Shown: positions 3,917 to 17,868 of the stretch, one piece after another
How positions within the stretch are numbered: position 1 is the first letter of the stretch
Layout of the letters: the number at the start of each line of letters is the position of its first letter
From: Undibacterium umbellatum
Lineage (GTDB): Bacteria; Pseudomonadota; Gammaproteobacteria; Burkholderiales; Burkholderiaceae_D
DNA: 64,000 nucleotides
Assembly (NCBI RefSeq): GCF_014284125.1
Contig: NZ_JACOFX010000001.1
Span: 310,001-374,000, forward strand
Direction of reading: 5' to 3'
Position numbers and translations under genes: made by a program
Notes under the pieces: model-generated
Told to the model about the DNA's origin: nothing
The model's input: only the letters and a program-made list of their open reading frames with translations
Databases searched by the model: none

Positions 3917-4434
3917 ACGTTGTAATTTGCAAGAATCGCTTCCATGCTCAGTTCAGACACCGCAGCTGACACATGCGGCCAAAGATACTTCTGCGCGTGC
4001 GGCGTCCGGAAAAACTCATGCGTGCCGGCGCAGTAAATCTGGAACTCACCCTCATCACATTTCTTATATGAGATAGACCTTGGCACCGGGAACACACCGC
4101 CTTTCGGGCCACTGCACCATATAACCCAGCCAGATCCCACCTTCAGCCAGAGCCTGAACATTTCTCGGTCTTTAAAGCGCTCCTGGTTCTTGAAGATTTC
4201 CCCCTCCAGTTTCATCTGCTTTCGATGAACTGGGCCAAGACGAGGAATCAGGGTTTCAATTGAAAAGAATTCGCCACTACCAAGGTTCCAGACCATGCGC
4301 CAGAAATTTCGCCAGGCCTTTTGGTCTTCTTCGGCTTGACCGTCAACCATTCCATACAGACAGTCACGCAAGACTTGACGTTGAGTCTCGGTCAGCTCTT
4401 GATCTGATTTCTTTGCGAGTACGATTTGGCTCAT
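3913..4434 (-). CDS. Phage protein, possibly DUF1367/NinB-like
   Basis: A 173-aa protein. The region KTEGEIF to FRLWLKVGSGWVIW is followed by PVPRSISYKKCDEGEFQIYC and LWPHVSAAVSELSMEAIL, which resembles the phage DUF1367 pattern (a basic 'sisf...de.ef...y' segment). The match is from memory and partial, so the family call is tentative. It lies between the DNA methyltransferase and the YbcO-like gene in the leftward operon with 4-bp overlaps on both sides, as expected for nin-region genes. A recombination or DNA-processing role would fit but is inferred only from context. Confidence 0.55.
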   Translation of the reverse strand: MSQIVLAKKSDQELTETQRQVLRDCLYGMVDGQAEEDQKAWRNFWRMVWNLGSGEFFSIETLIPRLGPVHRKQMKLEGEIFKNQERFKDREMFRLWLKVGSGWVIWCSGPKGGVFPVPRSISYKKCDEGEFQIYCAGTHEFFRTPHAQKYLWPHVSAAVSELSMEAILANYNV

Positions 4435-5525
4435 GCTGCCACCTCGACCTGAGCAAATAATGTTGAATCTGCCTGGATACGTTTACGGGCAATTTCCGCA
4501 TAAGCAGGGTTTAGCTCAATGCCTATGCAATTTCGCTGCAGGCGATCGGCAACCAGGCCTGTGGTGCCAGCGCCAAAGAAAGGATCCAGTACAGTTCCGC
4601 CAACAGGGCAGCCAGCTTTAATGCAGGTTTCCGGTAACTCTGGTGGGAATGTGGCAAAGTGAGCATCCTTGAAAGAATGCGTTGCCATGATCCATACAGA
4701 GCGCTTGTTTCGACCAAGTGGGTTATATTCACGATCGGACATCGTCATCGGTGGACGTGACACGCCATCACTGCGGCCCTTGTAGTTGGGCGAAGAAATA
4801 CCGCCACTAATAGATTTGACTCTTACTCGCTTGCGCATTTCTGAATCAGTGCCGTGCCCAAACCCAACACATCGAGAAAGTCGTTTTTGTGGCTTCTGAC
4901 CAGGCACTTCATAGTCTTTCGTATCAAACCTATTGCGTGAGGCCTCCGGATCACCAGTTGCCGGCTCCCTAATAGCGTCTGCGTTGTAGAAATACTGCTC
5001 GCTCTTGGTGAGCAAGAAAATGTATTCATGTGACTTTGTACAACGATCGCGCACCGACTCTGGCATGGGATTCGGCTTGCTCCATACAATATCCTGTCGC
5101 ACCCACCAGCCAGACTCTTGCAGTGCTATTGCCAGTCGGTGAGGCATCATGCACAAGTCTTTAGGTTTGAATCCGTCTAATTTCTTGCGATTGGGCTGCG
5201 TGTTAACGTGCCCGCGACGAATAAAGCGCTCGCCCTGGGCCCCACCACCAGGCGAACGGCCAACTGCGCCGGCACCGGTTGCATAGCTATCCCCCATGTT
5301 GACCCAACATGTACCGTCAGCCCGCAAGACACGCCTCACCTCTTCAAACACATCAACCATGATCGCAATGAATTCACCTGGCGTGGGCTCCAGACCAATC
5401 TGTCCTTCGACTCCGTAATCTCGCAGGCCCCAATATGGCGGGCTTGTCACTACACAGTGAATTGATTCAGACGCGATAGTTTTAAGCTGCTCGCGTGTAT
5501 CACCGATTAAAATCATTACGCTCAT
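4431..5525 (-). CDS. Phage N4-cytosine/N6-adenine DNA methyltransferase
   Basis: A 364-aa amino-methyltransferase with motif order of the beta class. Catalytic motif IV (TSPPYWGLRDYG) lies near residue 30, a variable target-recognition region in the middle, and the SAM-binding motif I (DPFFGAGTTGLVADRL) near residue 325, followed by GIELNPAYAEIARKRI. The Ser in SPPY is seen in both N4-cytosine and some N6-adenine enzymes, so the base cannot be decided. No restriction endonuclease gene adjoins it, so it is an orphan enzyme that probably marks phage DNA against host restriction. It is the longest gene of the leftward arm after the replication protein. Confidence 0.85.
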   Translation of the reverse strand: MSVMILIGDTREQLKTIASESIHCVVTSPPYWGLRDYGVEGQIGLEPTPGEFIAIMVDVFEEVRRVLRADGTCWVNMGDSYATGAGAVGRSPGGGAQGERFIRRGHVNTQPNRKKLDGFKPKDLCMMPHRLAIALQESGWWVRQDIVWSKPNPMPESVRDRCTKSHEYIFLLTKSEQYFYNADAIREPATGDPEASRNRFDTKDYEVPGQKPQKRLSRCVGFGHGTDSEMRKRVRVKSISGGISSPNYKGRSDGVSRPPMTMSDREYNPLGRNKRSVWIMATHSFKDAHFATFPPELPETCIKAGCPVGGTVLDPFFGAGTTGLVADRLQRNCIGIELNPAYAEIARKRIQADSTLFAQVEVAA

Positions 5526-8315: not shown

Positions 8316-8759
8316 ATGAAAAACTTACTTTGTGGTGCCATCTTGTTTTTTTTCAGTGGTTTTTCGTTGGCGGATAAGTATGGTGTGGATGAAAGTATTG
8401 GCGACGCACAATCTCTTCCAGCTTGGCTGCTTCCCGTTTTGTTCATCGGACTTCTGATTTACCATTTCAAAACAGTATCTGAATTGAAAGACGAAAATAT
8501 CTCGACAGCTGCTAGAAAAGATAGTCAGATTTTGAAAATTTTCGATGAGTTAGAGAAAGAGAAAAAAGGAAAAGAGGACGCTTTACGCAGCTTACGTCAA
8601 GCACTCCTGGAAATAACTCACGGAAAACTAAAAATTTACGGTCAGCATCAGGAATTGAAAGTACTGAAAAGTGCTTTGCAGCTGTATTTTGAAGGAGAAA
8701 TCTATGATACGGATTTGTTTGAAGCCGTCGAGCCATTTTTTCCAAATTACGCAAAATGA
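8316..8759 (+). CDS. Membrane-anchored coiled-coil protein, candidate exclusion component
   Basis: A 147-aa protein with an N-terminal signal-like segment (LLCGAILFFFSGFSLA, residues 4-19), a second hydrophobic helix (LPAWLLPVLFIGLLIYHF, about 35-52), then a charged coiled coil (DELEKEKKGKEDALRSLRQA) and a C-terminal segment ending in FEAVEPFFPNY. It starts 29 bp after cI with no clear ribosome binding site, so it may be expressed with cI in the lysogen. Its stop and the start of the nuclease gene form an ATGA overlap, indicating coupled synthesis. No family is recognised. A role as membrane partner of the secreted nuclease is inference. Confidence 0.65.
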   Translation: MKNLLCGAILFFFSGFSLADKYGVDESIGDAQSLPAWLLPVLFIGLLIYHFKTVSELKDENISTAARKDSQILKIFDELEKEKKGKEDALRSLRQALLEITHGKLKIYGQHQELKVLKSALQLYFEGEIYDTDLFEAVEPFFPNYAK

Positions 8760-9040
8760 ACTTTCTTCATTATGTGTTGGTGGCTGCAGTGGTTTTAACG
8801 CCGCACGTCGCAGAAGCCAAGATCCCCAGGTCAAAAGCGGCAGTCTCAGAATTTAAGAGACAGAACCCTTGCCCGATTACTGGCCTGCGCAAGGGGAAAT
8901 GCCCTGGTTACCAGGTTGATCACATTATTCCGCTAAAGTGTAGCGGGCCCGATACGTCTGCAAATATGCAGTGGCTATCAGTGGAGGATCACAAATTGAA
9001 AACAAGAAAAGAAGCTAAGCTTTGTAAAACCAAACTATAG
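8756..9040 (+). CDS. Secreted HNH-family endonuclease
   Basis: A 94-aa protein with a signal peptide (FLHYVLVAAVVLTPHVAEAK, likely cut after AEA) and a compact HNH core: QVDHIIPLKCSGPD (Asp-His), NMQWLS (Asn) and EDHKLKTRKEAK (His). This D-H...N...H arrangement is the beta-beta-alpha-metal nuclease motif. The two Cys-containing parts (NPCPITGLRKGKCPGY) could form a disulfide outside the cytoplasm. A periplasmic DNase made by a lysogen could cut DNA as it enters. That is a hypothesis from location and coupling with the membrane protein, not shown by the sequence. It lies where lambda carries rexAB, downstream of the repressor. Confidence 0.75.
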   Translation: MNFLHYVLVAAVVLTPHVAEAKIPRSKAAVSEFKRQNPCPITGLRKGKCPGYQVDHIIPLKCSGPDTSANMQWLSVEDHKLKTRKEAKLCKTKL

Positions 9041-10383: not shown

Positions 10384-10427
10384 TTATCACAAATGTGTTT
10401 GACATCCATAAACACATACGTGATAAT
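10384..10427 (+). promoter_or_regulatory. pL-like promoter with two CI/Cro operators
   Basis: TTGACA (10399-10404), 17 bp, GATAAT (10422-10427): the same hexamers and spacing as the cro promoter. Operators TTATCACAAATGTGTTT (10384-10400) and AAACACATACGTGATAA (10410-10426) have the 7-3-7 form of those at 7518-7582 and overlap the -35 and -10. Their centres are 26 bp apart. It should drive the + strand arm and be silenced by CI. Confidence 0.85.
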
Positions 10428-10465
10428 TAATCACATCGCAGCAAACAATTAATCAGGAGCCAAAG

Positions 10466-10687
10466 ATGAACACACAAACACCTTTCAACCTTGCCCCAGG
10501 CCACTTTGCCCAGCCAGCGGTTGACTCAAAACCGATGCTCATCAACGGCCAAAACCTGATCGATGCATTCGCTCAATGCGGCATGGAACAGTGCGAAAAA
10601 ATGGCCGCGATGCTCGATCAAGGACGGTACGAAAACTTTGGTCGAATGATGTTCAAGGTCATGCGCGAATGGTCTGAAGCTACTTAA
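10466..10687 (+). CDS. First gene of the pL-like arm, hypothetical, 73 aa
   Basis: The ATG follows AGGAG by 7 nt, and transcription should start about 32 bp upstream. The N-terminus is Pro/Ala-rich (PFNLAPGHFAQPAVDSKP); the C-terminal half is helical (LIDAFAQCGMEQCEKMAAML, FGRMMFKVMREW). In lambda this place belongs to the N antiterminator, but the product lacks the Arg-rich N-terminal motif, so it is not an obvious N. It precedes the gene-free structured stretch. Function unknown. Confidence 0.65.
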   Translation: MNTQTPFNLAPGHFAQPAVDSKPMLINGQNLIDAFAQCGMEQCEKMAAMLDQGRYENFGRMMFKVMREWSEAT

Positions 10688-10689
10688 TA

Positions 10690-11110
10690 AAAATTGGTTG
10701 CCGCCACCAAGTATCAAGGCGGCAGGGAAACTCAGATGCCTGAATCTTCTGACCTCTGTATCGGGTGATACCTCTAGTCTTGAGCAGGGACGGACAGTCG
10801 GGAAAGACCGACAAAGAATTGCAGTAGAGAAGAGTCCAACCTTCGACGGGTTGCGCGAAACAAAGCAAGTTATCAAATGCTGCGTTGGCGTATCAATCTG
10901 AAGACTAGAGGACGCCGAGGACGGAAGGCAGATGCCGTGACAGCCTGGAGAGACAGGCATCAAAACAAAACCGGCTTCCCCGCCCTAGCCAGCGGTGAAC
11001 TCCAGATTTACGAGGCCGGTTCTGTGTTGGTAAATGCATGATCGGAGCTGGACGGCTAGTACCCGTACCCGAAACTTGCAGTGTAGCCGAGCTGACATAG
11101 TCGAAAAATA
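10690..11110 (+). ncRNA. Candidate large structured RNA in the pL-like operon
   Basis: About 420 nt with no convincing ORF but dense perfect complementarities. Hairpin 10700-10705/10718-10723 (GCCGCC/GGCGGC). Hairpin 10758-10762/10767-10771 (GTATC/GATAC). Long-range 11-bp stem 10771-10781/10901-10911 (CCTCTAGTCTT/AAGACTAGAGG), which shares one base with the preceding hairpin and encloses hairpins 10797-10801/10808-10812 and 10837-10841/10849-10853. Then 10931-10936/10956-10961 (GATGCC/GGCATC). Then 10969-10975/11015-11021 (AACCGGC/GCCGGTT), enclosing 10980-10983/10992-10995. Then 11054-11058/11084-11088 (GGCTA/TAGCC), extended outside by AGCT/AGCT (11046-11049/11090-11093). It lies just after the first pL gene. 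I do not recognise a known RNA class. Boundaries are approximate. Confidence 0.6.
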
Positions 11111-11158
11111 GTGAAGATAGCCCATTTGCCAACACCTAATTTAACCAGGAGATCAGCA

Positions 11159-11536
11159 ATGAATGCAGCAGATCAGTTTGAAGTAGCGATGCATACGCCG
11201 GGGCCGTGGCGAGTTGGTTCTTCAGGAGGTGTTGTTTGTGACACCCCCATTAAGGACGGAATTCCTGGCTCAGATGAAGTCAAGTATTACGGCGGACATT
11301 TAATTTGCGAATCTATGACCTTTGCAAACGCCAAGTTGATCGCTGCAGCTCCTGATCTGCTGGCCGAATTAGGCAAAGCAGATTTGATCATCAATGTGAT
11401 GCTGAATCAGCTCACCACAGAGCAAAAGTGCGTCTGTGCAGCCAAGATTCAAGAGTTGGGCATTCATGGCCAAGGATTAGCCAGGGCGCACGAACGCGAC
11501 GCAGTTCTGCGCAAAGCATCGGGAGAGCCGACATGA
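11159..11536 (+). CDS. Phage early protein with HTPGPW...ANAKLIAAAPDLL pattern
   Basis: Start at 11159 follows AGGAGA by 7 nt; the longer frame lacks such a site. The 125-aa product carries MHTPGPWRVGSSGG near residue 11, a beta-rich segment, and FANAKLIAAAPDLLAEL in the middle. This pattern is very common in early genes of many temperate phages but has no established function that I know. The C-terminal part has two nearby cysteines (EQKCVCAAKIQ). Its stop overlaps the next small gene by ATGA. Confidence 0.65.
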   Translation: MNAADQFEVAMHTPGPWRVGSSGGVVCDTPIKDGIPGSDEVKYYGGHLICESMTFANAKLIAAAPDLLAELGKADLIINVMLNQLTTEQKCVCAAKIQELGIHGQGLARAHERDAVLRKASGEPT

Positions 11537-11756: not shown

Positions 11757-12860
11757 ATGTCACACGCGGATGCAGTCAAAACACAGGTAGCCACCCAACC
11801 CGATAACTCCATCGTCACCATGGGTTTTGGATCGTTGCAATCCTTCGAGTTCATGCAGCGTACTGCAAAGATGTTCGCTGTTTCCTCTATGGTGCCAAGC
11901 GCTTACCGTGCAGTAATCGAAAAAGGTTATGGCGACAACCTGCAATACGTCGACAATCCGGCAGCAGTTCCAAATTGCATCATTGCGCTCAACATGAGCC
12001 AGCGCATGAATGCAGATCCCTTGATGATCATGCAAAACCTGCATGTGATTGAAGGTCGTCCATCATGGTCATCACAGTTCATTATCGCCGCCATCAATTC
12101 CTGCGGTCGCTACTCCCCTCTTCGCTTTGACTTGGTCAAGGGCGAGGAAATGGATGCTTCTTTCACGACCTACGAATGGGAAAACAAAAAGAAGATTCCA
12201 AAAACATCGACTGTACGAACTCATGAAATGTCTTGCGTCGCCTGGGCCGTCGAACTCAGCACCAATCAGCGCCTGGAGTCTCCTAAGATCAGCATATCCA
12301 TGGCAGTGGCTGAAGGCTGGTTTGGTAAGAATGGCTCCAAATGGCGAACCATGCCAGAAGTCATGCTGCGTTACCGTGCCGCTGCATTCTTTGGCCGCAT
12401 CTATGCCCCAGAGCTCTTGATGGGCCTGCCAGCGGCAGAAGAGGTGCACGATGTTATTGATGTCGAGCTACAGAAAGACGGCACGTATGCAGCCACAGAG
12501 CAGCCAAAAGCAGACCCAAAACCGCCTCAATCCAAGTCTGAAAAGACGAAGCAGGCAGAAAGCAAGCCAGCTCCGGAAGTCAAAGCAACTGATGTTGAAT
12601 TCAAAGAAGCTTCTGAATCGCCTGCACCAGCGAACGAAGCAAAGGCAGAAGAAGTAACGACGGCAGCAGCAGAGACAGCCGAGTCTGTCCCTGGCAAAGG
12701 ATTGCCACTATCTGACTCTGAAAGCACATACATCAAATTCAAACTCGAAGAAGCTGCCCTGAGTTCCAACGATGTTTTCAAGAAGTTTGGTATTCGTCCG
12801 GAGCAAGTCACACAAACGGAATTCAAGGATGTTTTGGCCTGGATAAAAAGCCCTGACTGA
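11757..12860 (+). CDS. RecT-like single-strand annealing protein
   Basis: A 367-aa protein. The N-terminal 230 residues carry the RecT-type core: CIIALNMSQRMNADPLMIMQ, NLHVIEGRPSWSSQFIIAAI, then VAEGWFGKNGSKWRTMPEVM and LRYRAAAFFGRIYAPELLMG. The last part is a common signature in phage recombinases just before a PD-(D/E)XK exonuclease. It is followed by a charged Lys/Glu/Ala/Pro linker (about 245-315) and a small helical C-terminal domain (LPLSDSESTYIKFKLEEAAL ... FKDVLAWIKS) that may contact SSB. The partner exonuclease starts 2 bp after the stop, as in RecE/RecT and lambda Red pairs. The recombinase call rests on motif memory and this pairing. Confidence 0.7.
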   Translation: MSHADAVKTQVATQPDNSIVTMGFGSLQSFEFMQRTAKMFAVSSMVPSAYRAVIEKGYGDNLQYVDNPAAVPNCIIALNMSQRMNADPLMIMQNLHVIEGRPSWSSQFIIAAINSCGRYSPLRFDLVKGEEMDASFTTYEWENKKKIPKTSTVRTHEMSCVAWAVELSTNQRLESPKISISMAVAEGWFGKNGSKWRTMPEVMLRYRAAAFFGRIYAPELLMGLPAAEEVHDVIDVELQKDGTYAATEQPKADPKPPQSKSEKTKQAESKPAPEVKATDVEFKEASESPAPANEAKAEEVTTAAAETAESVPGKGLPLSDSESTYIKFKLEEAALSSNDVFKKFGIRPEQVTQTEFKDVLAWIKSPD

Positions 12861-12862
12861 TC

Positions 12863-13444
12863 ATGCTGACCTTTGATGAAGACAGCCATACGTACCGCTG
12901 GCACAACCAGGTTGTGCCAAGCGTGACGCAAATTCTGGCACCGATGCTTGATTACTCGAACGTTCCCGCAGAAAACCTGCGACGGGCTCAGTTGCTAGGG
13001 ACTTACGTTCATAAAACAACTGAGCTGTACGACTTGAACGATCTGGACTTTGACACCTTGCCAGATGAAATTGCGCCGTACCTGAATGCCTGGATCAAGT
13101 TCAAAAGGGAATGTGAGTTCGAACCGGCCACGGTCGAGCAGAAGCTGTACCACAAGCAGCTCGGCTATTCCGGTACATCTGACCGAACAGGACTGATACG
13201 CGGGCGTATGGCTGTCATAGACATCAAAAAAATGCTTTCGCTTGGCCCCGTAATCGGCATGCAGCTCGCAGCTTACAAAGAGCTCCATACCCATGCCGGG
13301 CAAAAAGTTCTAGACCGCTATGCGCTGGGCCTTCGCTCAGACGGGACTTATCGGATGGTCCCTTACAAAGATGAATCCGACTACGCCGCATTTATGTCGC
13401 TGTTGACCTTACGTAACTGGAGATTGAAACATGGAATTGCTTGA
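12863..13444 (+). CDS. PD-(D/E)XK phage exonuclease (recombination partner)
   Basis: A 193-aa RecB/lambda-exonuclease-like nuclease. Residues seen: SVTQILAPMLDYSNV, RRAQLLGTYVHKTTELYD (the conserved G-x2-H-x3-E helix), GYSGTSDRTGLIRGRMAVID (catalytic Asp), IDIKKM (D-x-K variant of the ExK strand) and GMQLAAYKEL (QLAAY helix). These are the motifs of the PD-(D/E)XK exonuclease family. It probably degrades one strand of dsDNA ends to give the annealing protein its substrate. It is compact (Cas4-like size) and overlaps the next gene by 14 bp. Confidence 0.8.
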   Translation: MLTFDEDSHTYRWHNQVVPSVTQILAPMLDYSNVPAENLRRAQLLGTYVHKTTELYDLNDLDFDTLPDEIAPYLNAWIKFKRECEFEPATVEQKLYHKQLGYSGTSDRTGLIRGRMAVIDIKKMLSLGPVIGMQLAAYKELHTHAGQKVLDRYALGLRSDGTYRMVPYKDESDYAAFMSLLTLRNWRLKHGIA

Positions 13445-15764: not shown

Positions 15765-16069
15765 AAAACATAACAGATATCAACGGCACAGCCGGCGCGG
15801 CAGTAGAAGAAAAAATCTCTTTTGGCAAGGCATCTGAAAAGGCAACGCGTCAGACGCAGAACAATCTGCTTGACCATGCCATCAAGTCTGCAGGGCTGAA
15901 AAATGATGCTGGCCTGGCTCGTATGCTGGAAGTGGCACCGCCAGTCATCAGCAAAATCAGGCATAAGCATTTGCCAGTGGGAGCAACGCTGGCAGTTGCA
16001 ATAACAGAAGAAACTGATCTGTCCATCGCAGATATCGCGGCAATTCTGGCTGGCCGGGTGACTGCATGA
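15761..16069 (+). CDS. Small XRE-like helix-turn-helix phage protein
   Basis: A 102-aa protein. Residues 37-95 form a helix-turn-helix domain (LDHAIKSAGLKNDAGLARML, EVAPPVISKIRHKHLPVGAT, LAVAITEETDLSIADIAAIL) typical of phage antirepressor-type or 'LexA-binding' small regulators found before methyltransferase genes. ATGA overlaps link it to the 50-aa gene upstream and the C5 methyltransferase downstream. It probably binds DNA; its target is unknown. Confidence 0.65.
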   Translation: MKNITDINGTAGAAVEEKISFGKASEKATRQTQNNLLDHAIKSAGLKNDAGLARMLEVAPPVISKIRHKHLPVGATLAVAITEETDLSIADIAAILAGRVTA

Positions 16070-17868
16070 TCATCGAGAAAGATATCAGGCATTTCCACTT
16101 CTGCTGTGGCCTCGGGGGCGGCAAGAAGGGCTTCAACAAAGCCAGGCCTCGCGTTGGCAACATGGTAGGCAAACTTCGTTGCATCGGTGGCGTGGACGTT
16201 GACCCGGCAGCTATTCGCGATTTTGACAAAATGGGCGATGGCAGACCAGGCACGATTATGGACCTATTCACACGTGGCCAGTATACGGCTTTCCATAGCA
16301 AGCAACCTCCTGGCGAATGGCAAGAAATCACGCCTGCAGATATACGCCGCGCGGCTGGCACTGAGAGCCCGAACATTGTTTTCATTTCTAGCCCATGCAA
16401 AGGTGCGTCCGGTCTGTTGAGCGAAAAACTCAGCCAAACGGCAAAGTACCAGGCATTGAACGAACTGACGCTGCGCTGCATCTGGCTGATGGCTGAAGCC
16501 TGGGCAGATGACCCGGTCGAACTGATCGTGTTTGAAAACGTGCCGCGCTTGGCTACCCGTGGGCGTCACCTACTTGACCAGATTAACCAACTGCTGCACC
16601 GGTATGGCTATGCTGTGGCCGAGACAACGCACGACTGTGGCGAACTCGGTGGCCTGGCTCAGTCACGCAAACGCTTCTTACTCGTTGCGCGCCACATGGA
16701 AAAGGTGCCACCGTTCTTGTACGAGCCAGAGAAAAAGCGCTTGGCCGCTGTTGGCGACGTGCTTGGCCGCATGCCCATGCCAGGTGATCTGACTGGCGGA
16801 CCAATGCACCGCATCCCTCGCCTGCAATGGAAAACGTGGGTACGCCTAGCATTTGTAGAGGCCGGTAGCGACTGGCGCAGCTTGAACAAGCTGGCCGTGA
16901 ACAATGGGCACCTGAGCGATTACCTGATTGTGCCTGAGTATCGCTCTGGATACCTTGGCGTACAAAACTGGTCTGATACCTCGGGCACGGTCTGCGGGAA
17001 ATCAAATGCAACAAATGGCGCGTTTTCAATTGCAGATCCTCGCATGGTTACCACAGCCGAATACAGCCAGTACGGCGTGTTGCCATGGACAGACTCAACA
17101 GGTGTCATCAGCGCCCAATCAGCTCCAGGTGGCGGCAAGTACTCGGTAGCAGACCCGCGCATGCTGGAAAGCAGCCATCACAACAACTGTTTCAGGGTTG
17201 TTGCCTGGAATGGACATGCTGGTACCGTCACATCTGGCCACGGCCCAAGCAGTGGCGGTGGATGTGTGGCAGATCCGCGCCGGGCTGGTCCGTCATTCGG
17301 AAAATATGCTGTAACCAAGTTTGATGAGCCTGCCGGTACCGTGATTGCTGGCAGCACGACTGGTCAGGGAGCGTTTGCCGTGGCGGACCCACGCACAAGC
17401 ATGAATCGCAAGTCAGGCGATGCATATCTGACAGGTGGGCACTATGGCGTAGTGCCGTGGGATGCTGCTTGCGGGGCTGTTAGCGCATCGGCTGGCCTGG
17501 ACAATGGCCGCTGGTCGGTCGCCGATCCTCGTATCGCTACCCTGCCCGCCATGGATGAAAAGACGATTGCCATCATTCAGTCTTTGGATGGCACTTGGCA
17601 CCGCCCATTTACAACGCTGGAACTGGCCGCATTGCAAAGCCTGGTTGATCCGGAAGAAATGCTAGTTCTGGATGGTTTGTCTGATAGCGCTTGGCGCGAA
17701 CGTATCGGAAATGCCGTTCCACCGGCTGCAGCGGAAGCCATTGCCGAAGTCATGGGCACAACCCTGCTACTGGCCTGGTCAGGCGAAACATTCGTACTGT
17801 CGGCAATGCCTATCTGGGTGCAACCAGTGGCGGTAGCTCTGTCGGTTGCACAAGGGGAAGCAGCGTAA
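16066..17868 (+). CDS. Orphan C5-cytosine DNA methyltransferase with internal repeats
   Basis: A 600-aa enzyme with the C5-MTase motif order: FCCGLGGGKKGF (motif I), GVDVDP (II), SSPCKGASG with the catalytic Cys near residue 111 (IV), ENVPRL (VI, near 157), QSRKRFLLVARH (VIII), and C-terminal ERIGNAVPPAAAEAIAEVMG (X). Between VIII and X the target-recognition region carries five degenerate repeats of about 40 residues, each closing in (I/V)ADPR (near residues 323, 362, 402, 440 and 486) after a GTV...G(R/K/A)(Y/F/W)SVADPR-type strand. No restriction partner is present, so it likely protects phage DNA from host restriction. It is linked by ATGA and TAATG overlaps to its neighbours. Confidence 0.88.
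   Translation: MIIEKDIRHFHFCCGLGGGKKGFNKARPRVGNMVGKLRCIGGVDVDPAAIRDFDKMGDGRPGTIMDLFTRGQYTAFHSKQPPGEWQEITPADIRRAAGTESPNIVFISSPCKGASGLLSEKLSQTAKYQALNELTLRCIWLMAEAWADDPVELIVFENVPRLATRGRHLLDQINQLLHRYGYAVAETTHDCGELGGLAQSRKRFLLVARHMEKVPPFLYEPEKKRLAAVGDVLGRMPMPGDLTGGPMHRIPRLQWKTWVRLAFVEAGSDWRSLNKLAVNNGHLSDYLIVPEYRSGYLGVQNWSDTSGTVCGKSNATNGAFSIADPRMVTTAEYSQYGVLPWTDSTGVISAQSAPGGGKYSVADPRMLESSHHNNCFRVVAWNGHAGTVTSGHGPSSGGGCVADPRRAGPSFGKYAVTKFDEPAGTVIAGSTTGQGAFAVADPRTSMNRKSGDAYLTGGHYGVVPWDAACGAVSASAGLDNGRWSVADPRIATLPAMDEKTIAIIQSLDGTWHRPFTTLELAALQSLVDPEEMLVLDGLSDSAWRERIGNAVPPAAAEAIAEVMGTTLLLAWSGETFVLSAMPIWVQPVAVALSVAQGEAA

Follow-up and report, generated by a model that had tools for sequence, protein, structure and literature searches.

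The early region and its coding status

The window analysed here is a 64,000-nt stretch of the genome of Undibacterium umbellatum, and the region of interest lies on its + strand at 10690-11140, downstream of a pL-like promoter and one small gene. The promoter, TTGACA-17-GATAAT at 10399-10427 (+), is sigma-70-like and matches the consensus at 11 of 12 positions. The first gene behind it (10466-10687, +) encodes 73 aa, has no PHROG match, and is kept in two sister contigs, L036 and L072, which carry the same flanking genes as the window. The region is followed by a gene of 125 aa (11159-11536, +) that belongs to PHROG 1273, a group of unknown function, and then by a RecT-like annealing-protein gene at 11757 and an exonuclease gene at 12863. 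The first-pass annotation had placed the region in a pL-like position ahead of recombination genes, and both the promoter and these genes are present. ARAGORN found no tRNA in the window. One IMG/VR viral contig (L030) corresponds to the window around the core described below, and is identical to it from 60 nt before to 140 nt after the core pattern. Elsewhere in the window, positions 8756-9040, upstream of the early region, encode a 94-aa HNH endonuclease-like protein with an apparent signal peptide (by eye), and positions 16066-17868 encode a 600-aa protein that matches phage DNA methyltransferase families and whose N-terminus strongly matches a PHROG of unknown function.

The region had been described as lacking a credible open reading frame, a description that our analysis bears out. 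Frames wholly within it reach at most 76 aa, and a 145-aa frame that begins with TTG on the - strand extends out of it into the antisense of the 73-aa gene. A conserved frame with synonymous-biased substitutions, the observation that would speak against an RNA, was looked for in the sister contigs by counting substitutions in the three codon phases, pairwise among the window, L036 and L072. Codon phase was seen only in the flanking genes. For 10688-10815 the counts were 10/5/4 (window/L036), 7/7/9 (window/L072) and 7/6/7 (L036/L072); in the same order they were 2/5/2, 2/2/4 and 3/5/4 for 10955-11032, and 4/5/4, 2/3/2 and 3/2/2 for 11022-11140, while the poorly alignable middle block gave 13/15/16 for window/L036. 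None of these four blocks shows a codon phase, in contrast to the 73-aa gene (10/30/24, 3/21/10 and 10/32/25) and the 125-aa gene (33/60/41 for window/L072 and 2/21/6 for L036/L072).

For the + strand of 10690-11140 the computed folding energy is -148.8 kcal/mol (z -3.18), a value that none of 100 dinucleotide shuffles attained; for the - strand of the same region z was -1.41, and 8 of 100 shuffles were as low. Fold energy, the lack of codon phase and covariation across many phages (below) together support the conclusion that the region behaves as a structured RNA and not as protein-coding sequence, as had been proposed. Two of the stems originally singled out, an 11-bp long-range pair (10771-10781/10901-10911) and a 7-bp pair (10969-10975/11015-11021), are exact in the sequence, and a perfect stem of at least 11 bp arose in 1 of 60 mononucleotide shuffles of the region. 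The 11-bp stem is real in the window but is not conserved: its 5' arm is kept in L036 and L072, and its 3' arm is reduced to 7 nt in the former and 5 nt in the latter.

Searches for known RNA families

In the window no match attains the gathering score of any Rfam family, in agreement with the earlier view that no known class fits. At E<=10, the stretch 10400-11400 gives three matches, all far below threshold, of which only RAGATH-32 (13.4 bits against a cut-off of 41.8) falls within the region. No family overlaps the element at cut-off in the phage and plasmid loci scanned either (7, 8, 20 and 20 loci). The GAGGACGGAAGG string is absent from the open-access papers searched, although an earlier description elsewhere is possible, and the hairpin strings are matched there only in what is, by its title, a cementoblast study. 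The RNA, which we denote P1-GACA-P2 after its constant part, may represent a new RNA class.

A likeness to group I introns had been suggested from two short motifs. CATAGTC is exact at 11096-11102, and AGACTAGA is present but at 10902-10909, one base away from the position first given. RF00028, with its P3-P7-P8 core, gives no match at gathering score in the window or at E<=10 in 10400-11400. In view of this and of the lack of conservation of the 11-bp stem, we find no support for a group I intron. Near 10843 the string UUCGACGGGUUGCGCGAAAC resembles the 5' end of a tmRNA; this candidate was rejected, as the window has neither an Rfam tmRNA match nor an ARAGORN call. SRP RNA and the T4 stable RNAs were also considered and dropped.

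Modular architecture of the region

The region consists of two units, each of which ends in a constant hairpin of the form GAC-A-[5-bp stem, GARAGA loop] (10789-10815 and 10935-10961), and two further modules, all on the + strand. Two models were built, one of the core of unit 2 and its relatives (R1) and one of the hairpin (R2). The variable body of unit 1 (10690-10788) has a consensus fold with L036 and L072; for the block 10688-10815 this fold, predicted from three sequences only, contains 33 pairs, 5 of which have changed on both sides. The body leads into the hairpin GAC-A-GUCGG[GAAAGA]CCGAC (10789-10815), which is matched in part by R1 (10793-10812, 17.1 bits; unit 1 is not in the R1 alignment) and by R2 at 29.9 bits, from an alignment that contains this hairpin.

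The variable body of unit 2 (10816-10913), whose 3' part supplies the 3' arm of the 11-bp stem, is poorly conserved in L036 and absent from L072. It is followed by an H-type pseudoknot core (10914-10941) that has blastn matches in phages and plasmids and compensatory changes elsewhere. Helix Pa pairs GCC at 10914-10916 with GGC at 10927-10929, and helix Pb pairs ACGG at 10921-10924 with CCGU at 10935-10938, leaving GAGG and GAC unpaired. The unit closes with the hairpin A-GCCUG[GAGAGA]CAGGC-A (10942-10961), which shows covariation. The core scores 76.3 bits with R1 and the hairpin 41.4 bits with R2, the window being part of both alignments.

Downstream, a long hairpin module (C1, 10959-11031) holds the 7-bp stem mentioned above and has a consensus fold of 23 pairs on three sequences, 1 of them changed on both sides. 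The 3' module (C2, 11024-11135), defined by consensus fold and sequence, is closed by a 13-bp helix (11024-11036/11123-11135) and has no pair changed on both sides in the same three sequences. C2 overlaps the 3' arm of C1 in the window; in L036 the two are separate, with about 490 nt of extra modules between their counterparts. A pattern scan for the 3' module found no carriers beyond the three known relatives.

The region is modular, with gain and loss of units at the hairpin. In L072 unit 2 is missing altogether and the unit 1 hairpin joins the next module directly, and the flanking genes and modules are kept. Likewise, contig L020 equals contig L022 plus one unit, with the insertion point within the hairpin.

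A pseudoknot core shared by phages and plasmids

When homologues were collected by blastn, as the first-pass annotation had suggested, the matches were limited to a short piece of the region (no more than 10908-10956) and came from four records of two Caulobacter giant phages and from two plasmids each of Leclercia and Acetobacter. Nothing is annotated at these matches, the plasmid gene table being one that omits RNA genes. A pattern scan of IMG/VR found the core in 28 contigs, all with the same layout by eye: GCC-GAGG-ACGG-AA-GGC-n-CCGU-GAC-A, followed by a hairpin whose loop is GAGAGA, GAAAGA or GAGAGU. As this first pattern fixed much of the helices, new searches were made with one or the other helix left free. 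In total, the core is present at 54 loci including the window, the 53 others being in viral contigs, Caulobacter phages, Leclercia plasmids and Acetobacter.

All three helices of the core show compensatory changes. In Pa, GCC/GGC is replaced on both sides by GGC with GCU (9 loci), GCA (2) or GCG (1), and by GUC/GAC (1); the outer pair is broken in 5 of 54 loci and the inner pair in 1. Support for Pb comes from two sequences, one with the two-sided change from ACGG/CCGU to ACCG/CGGU and one, ACGG/UCGU, changed on one side only. In an alignment of 34 of the 40 distinct cores, 92.0% of cells were paired compared with 82.4% in shuffles, and the covariation score was 0.262 against 0.105 in shuffles (0/500 as high), with slid controls at or below 0.067. 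Some P2 stems of 4 bp are out of register in this alignment, which lowers the P2 count. Covariation, put forward at the outset as a check on the listed stems, is found in the core helices; the 11-bp stem is not conserved.

A slightly loosened core pattern occurs in 1 of 399 genomes of the window's order, namely its own. A scan of the phylum with R1 gave hits in 47 of 398 genomes at E<=0.01, with 76.3 bits in the window's own genome and 30.9 bits at the best other place; among 11 of the other loci that were viewed, L097, L100, L105 and L107 resemble divergent hairpins by eye and the rest do not. The exact core pattern was found in 25 stretches of genome contigs, 5 of which we take as real (L045, L050, L055, L059 and L066); the other 20, which lack the GARAGA hairpin, were dropped. 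Among the dropped stretches is another repeated element, GGAGCGAGGACGGAAGG..GCGCCGTGACAGG, in most cases preceded by a conserved block. It was seen in L044, L046, L052, L057, L061 and L067, with several copies in a Clostridiales MAG and in a Saccharicenans MAG. It has the GAGG-ACGG..CCGU-GAC core in common with the phage core, though not the GARAGA hairpin, and has no Rfam match at E<=0.01.

The constant hairpin on unrelated sequences

R1 also matched the last hairpin alone at second sites of some core loci, including 10793-10812 of the window. When the hairpin was scanned for with GTGACAGYYNGGARAGACNRRC, at least 120 IMG/VR stretches were found, with upstream sequence that is mostly unrelated; by composition we would expect roughly one by chance (our own rough estimate and not the result of a tool). 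The upstream 150 nt of 79 loci among the matches listed (77 of them comparable) fall into 64 groups, and no match longer than 60 nt joins one group to another. The hairpin alone is commoner than the full core.

We aligned 72 hairpins, 60 from the scan matches listed and 12 chosen by hand. The one pair that the pattern leaves free forms in 71 of the 72 (GC 32, CG 27, UA 9, AU 2, UG 1). The 165-nt unit regions fold with a mean z of -1.32 (n=77), compared with -0.24 (n=66) and -0.34 (n=69) for their flanks; for unit regions with the pseudoknot core the mean z is -0.85 (n=23), slightly better than shuffles. P1-GACA-P2 is a widespread element, a constant 3' part on variable bodies that is enriched at boundaries (below), and the window holds two copies of it, recognised by the GAC-A hairpin, the GARAGA loop and covariation (29.9 and 41.4 bits).

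Upstream of GAC there is often a further short helix that begins with AC and ends with GU: 47 of the 72 sites have an AC-started stem of at least 4 bp, against a mean of 27.3 and a maximum of 39 in 200 shuffles. The resulting RA/AC...GU/GA arrangement around P1 would suit a site for a conserved host protein, either kink-turn-like, with tandem GA next to an AC/GU pair, or a site for a ribonuclease or ribosomal protein, with the phage RNA acting as a decoy or a recruiter. We regard this explanation as unlikely, given that 25 of the 72 sites have no AC-started stem and that the unit 2 core has GG, not GA, before AC.

Genomic position of the hairpin

R2 was searched against 24 whole records, of which 23 were selected because a copy was already known. 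One to four hits were found in 22 of the 24, in a single cluster each except in G800, G807 and G808; HK022 gave no R2 hit, and neither did CcrColossus at the cut-off used, although it has the core. The window's own genome has exactly two R2 matches at E<=1, both in the region.

Among the matches listed, 12 of 115 distinct sites have a tRNA that starts 4-15 nt beyond the hairpin, compared with 10 of 2300 random control positions, and at one more of the 115 a tRNA lies beyond 15 nt but within 100 nt. A Shine-Dalgarno-like box with a start codon follows within 70 nt at 33 of 115 sites (control, 146 of 1051). Terminator-like signals are not clearly enriched downstream (8 of 115 sites against 45 of 1042 in the control). 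Provided that the two groups do not overlap, 70 of the 115 sites lack both a tRNA within 15 nt and a Shine-Dalgarno box with a start within 70 nt. In three contigs (L129, L148 and L188) two frames are separated, judged by eye, by about 65-85 nt, with the motif in between; we take these frames to be the capsid and DUF1320 genes of Mu-like phages. A crude gene caller placed the motif inside a frame of at least 80 aa at 64 of 132 loci, and in 15 of the 64 the frame and the motif share a strand; these calls were too unreliable in GC-rich contigs to be used for conclusions.

Enrichment at cistron boundaries, together with about 15 strongly conserved nucleotides around two short helices in a setting that is otherwise freely exchanged, is what a new small self-cleaving ribozyme might look like, in which P1-GACA-P2 would form a catalytic core that cuts next to the following tRNA or gene. 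We consider such a ribozyme very unlikely, as most of the invariant bases were fixed by the search patterns themselves, no known ribozyme family appears at Rfam cut-off in the window or the loci scanned, and RAGATH-32 is far below its own.

In contigs of enterobacterial type, the core lies within arrays of hairpin modules, with tRNAs downstream in L012, L013 and L043. Contig L037 resembles phage records that are annotated at this place with dicB, DicF or kil. Its positions 4187-4600, an unannotated module 3' of the core and without the core itself, match 4341 of 5426 complete E. coli genomes, and in the one E. coli locus examined the L037-type 3' module lies near kil. R2 has no hit in the K-12 Qin stretch or in the E. 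coli A8 locus.

Several stretches that carry the core also hold other features. A permuted tmRNA lies among the tRNAs of each of the two Caulobacter giant phages (L009 1688-2103 and L010 1625-2008), and a viral contig has a tmRNA call at L079 4604-4986. In L016, a viral contig with tRNAs, two YrlA-like (Y RNA) matches below gathering score flank the core (341-461 and 1185-1288). On an Acetobacter plasmid (L014 4938-8047), a tRNA cluster with the core adjoins type I-E CRISPR-Cas genes.

These positions bear on the antitermination RNA that had been proposed for the region. In HK022, as described in PMC9378689, put consists of two stem-loops in the early phage transcript; putL follows PL closely, and putR lies some 270 nt beyond the point where the PR transcript begins. 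In the window the hairpins lie about 360-535 nt past the -10 box of the promoter, a distance that may count against a put-like element. A put-like element in our region would be a cis-acting antiterminator of two helices; by binding RNA polymerase it would suppress termination in long phage transcripts that are not translated. The position in a pL-type operon and in tRNA arrays is in keeping with this, two stem-loops of modest size recall put, and a conserved target such as RNA polymerase would fit the spread over distant hosts. However, the whole HK022 record gives no more than 11.1 bits with R1 (E 0.53) and no hit with R2, and the module occurs in tandem copies. It also occurs where a transcript seems to end. 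In CcrPW the core comes after the last tRNA of the stretch read and before genes on the opposite strand. L020 and L022 have a common conserved block with an upstream CATAAT box, a promoter by eye though not by the scan's rule, and a terminator-like hairpin of 11 bp that lies 66 and 65 nt, respectively, past the last GAC hairpin and 203 and 65 nt past the core. Because of the tandem copies, the copies at transcript ends and the lack of a convincing HK022 match, we reject antitermination as the main reading and hold it to be quite unlikely.

HEARO-like elements

A scan for the hairpin in 369 genomes of the window's class, its own included, gave matches in 5. In three genomes of one family (G924, G1035 and G1129) there were from 18 to at least 20 hits each. 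When seven of these loci were examined with cmscan, HEARO (RF02033, cut-off 83) was matched at 97-112 bits in four and at 35-71 bits in the remaining three. The elements are dispersed and ORF-less, share up to about 380 bp (L250, L254, L257 and others), and carry the GAC hairpin directly 3' of the HEARO model. A right-end motif is found in 20 of 28 loci; terminal inverted repeats were considered and rejected, as an inverted copy of the right end lies upstream in only 1 of the 28. IscB-type genes occur elsewhere in the same three genomes.

These elements raise the possibility that the phage RNAs derive from HEARO/IscB omega RNAs and serve as guides or decoys of an RNA-guided nuclease. Besides the hairpin, HEARO and the core share CGAGG, a very short stretch. 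The GAC hairpin is absent from the IscB copies L279 and L280, whose open frames have 420 and 465 aa; in L283 and L286 GAC is followed by a different hairpin. Neither the window nor any phage locus scanned matches HEARO. A derivation of the phage RNAs from omega RNAs is highly improbable, and we do not claim that they are omega RNAs. In our reading, a selfish element has taken up the module, or the likeness is due to convergence.

A proposed role for the constant 3' module

We propose, short of even confidence, that the region is a processed phage non-coding RNA in which the variable body does the work and a constant module caps the 3' end. Fold, covariation, modularity and distribution of the phage module are observed directly; from them we infer processing, end protection and action in trans. 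The constant module would comprise the short helix P1 (of the AC..GU type, and part of the pseudoknot in unit 2), a GACA linker and the P2 hairpin with its GARAGA loop. The RNA would be cut out of the early transcript and, elsewhere, out of tRNA arrays, or come from a gene of its own. Where a tRNA follows, RNase P might generate its end; ahead of a gene an endonuclease might do so, and a terminator is the third candidate. The spacing of 4-15 nt to the tRNA suggests that an RNase P cut would give the upstream RNA a new 3' end that carries the hairpin. There, by its compact fold or through a conserved host factor, the module may form and protect the 3' end of each unit, and the variable body would act in trans.

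Several observations speak against the capped, processed RNA that we favour. Terminators are not clearly enriched, and the 70 sites without a near tRNA or a Shine-Dalgarno box and start have no evident boundary of these kinds. L072 persists without unit 2, the core units fold only slightly better than shuffles, and the crude gene calls place the motif inside frames at nearly half of the loci.

A bolder form of the proposal, which is possible but on balance doubtful, is that P1-GACA-P2 is a universal RNA tail on unrelated phage non-coding bodies that marks unit boundaries, is read by a host factor or is itself a self-processing ribozyme, and has sometimes been captured by HEARO guide RNAs. If so, a single small fold would be common to more than 100 viral contigs, in mostly unrelated surroundings, and to a family of selfish elements. 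The attachment of one constant end to unrelated bodies would also imply a common handling step in phage RNA biology, whether processing, stability or docking, and annotators would gain a marker for hidden phage non-coding genes, including RNA arrays beside phage tRNAs.

Comparison with known systems

Known small RNAs come close to the core in two loci of enterobacterial type, in neither case overlapping it. STnc100/PasD reaches 48.1 bits in L037 (cut-off 47), with further matches below cut-off in L013 (36.4) and, as a distant one, in L037 (27.5), and DicF reaches 29.3 bits in L037, below its cut-off of 48. In CcrPW the tmRNA is separate from the core. HDV-like theta ribozymes are also RNA elements tied to phage tRNAs (PMC10879173), but no HDV-type family is among the Rfam matches seen for the phage module. 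The likeness to HEARO is confined to the three genomes whose ORF-less elements carry the same GAC hairpin 3' of their fold. The defining trait of HK022 put is suppression of termination via the zinc-binding domain of the RNA polymerase beta' subunit; unlike put, copies of our module are also found inside tRNA arrays, between other genes and at transcript ends.

GOLLD and ROOL, as described in PMC12286853, are found near tRNA islands; both are large, structured phage RNAs of unknown function, and in GOLLD the 3' part is conserved and the 5' part less so. The RNA described here is likewise phage-borne, is often near tRNAs and joins a conserved 3' part to a variable 5' part, as GOLLD is reported to do, and the window and L036 contain modular long hairpins. 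It could accordingly be imagined as an ornate phage RNA of this kind that acts in trans, is possibly multimeric, and uses the constant hairpin as a docking element. We think this rather unlikely: neither covariance model matches the window or the scanned loci (7, 8, 20 and 20), and some copies are very short, lying by eye in gaps of about 65-85 nt between two frames. What distinguishes the present element from GOLLD and ROOL is a constant module of about 30-50 nt that sits on unrelated bodies, with one to four hits per record.
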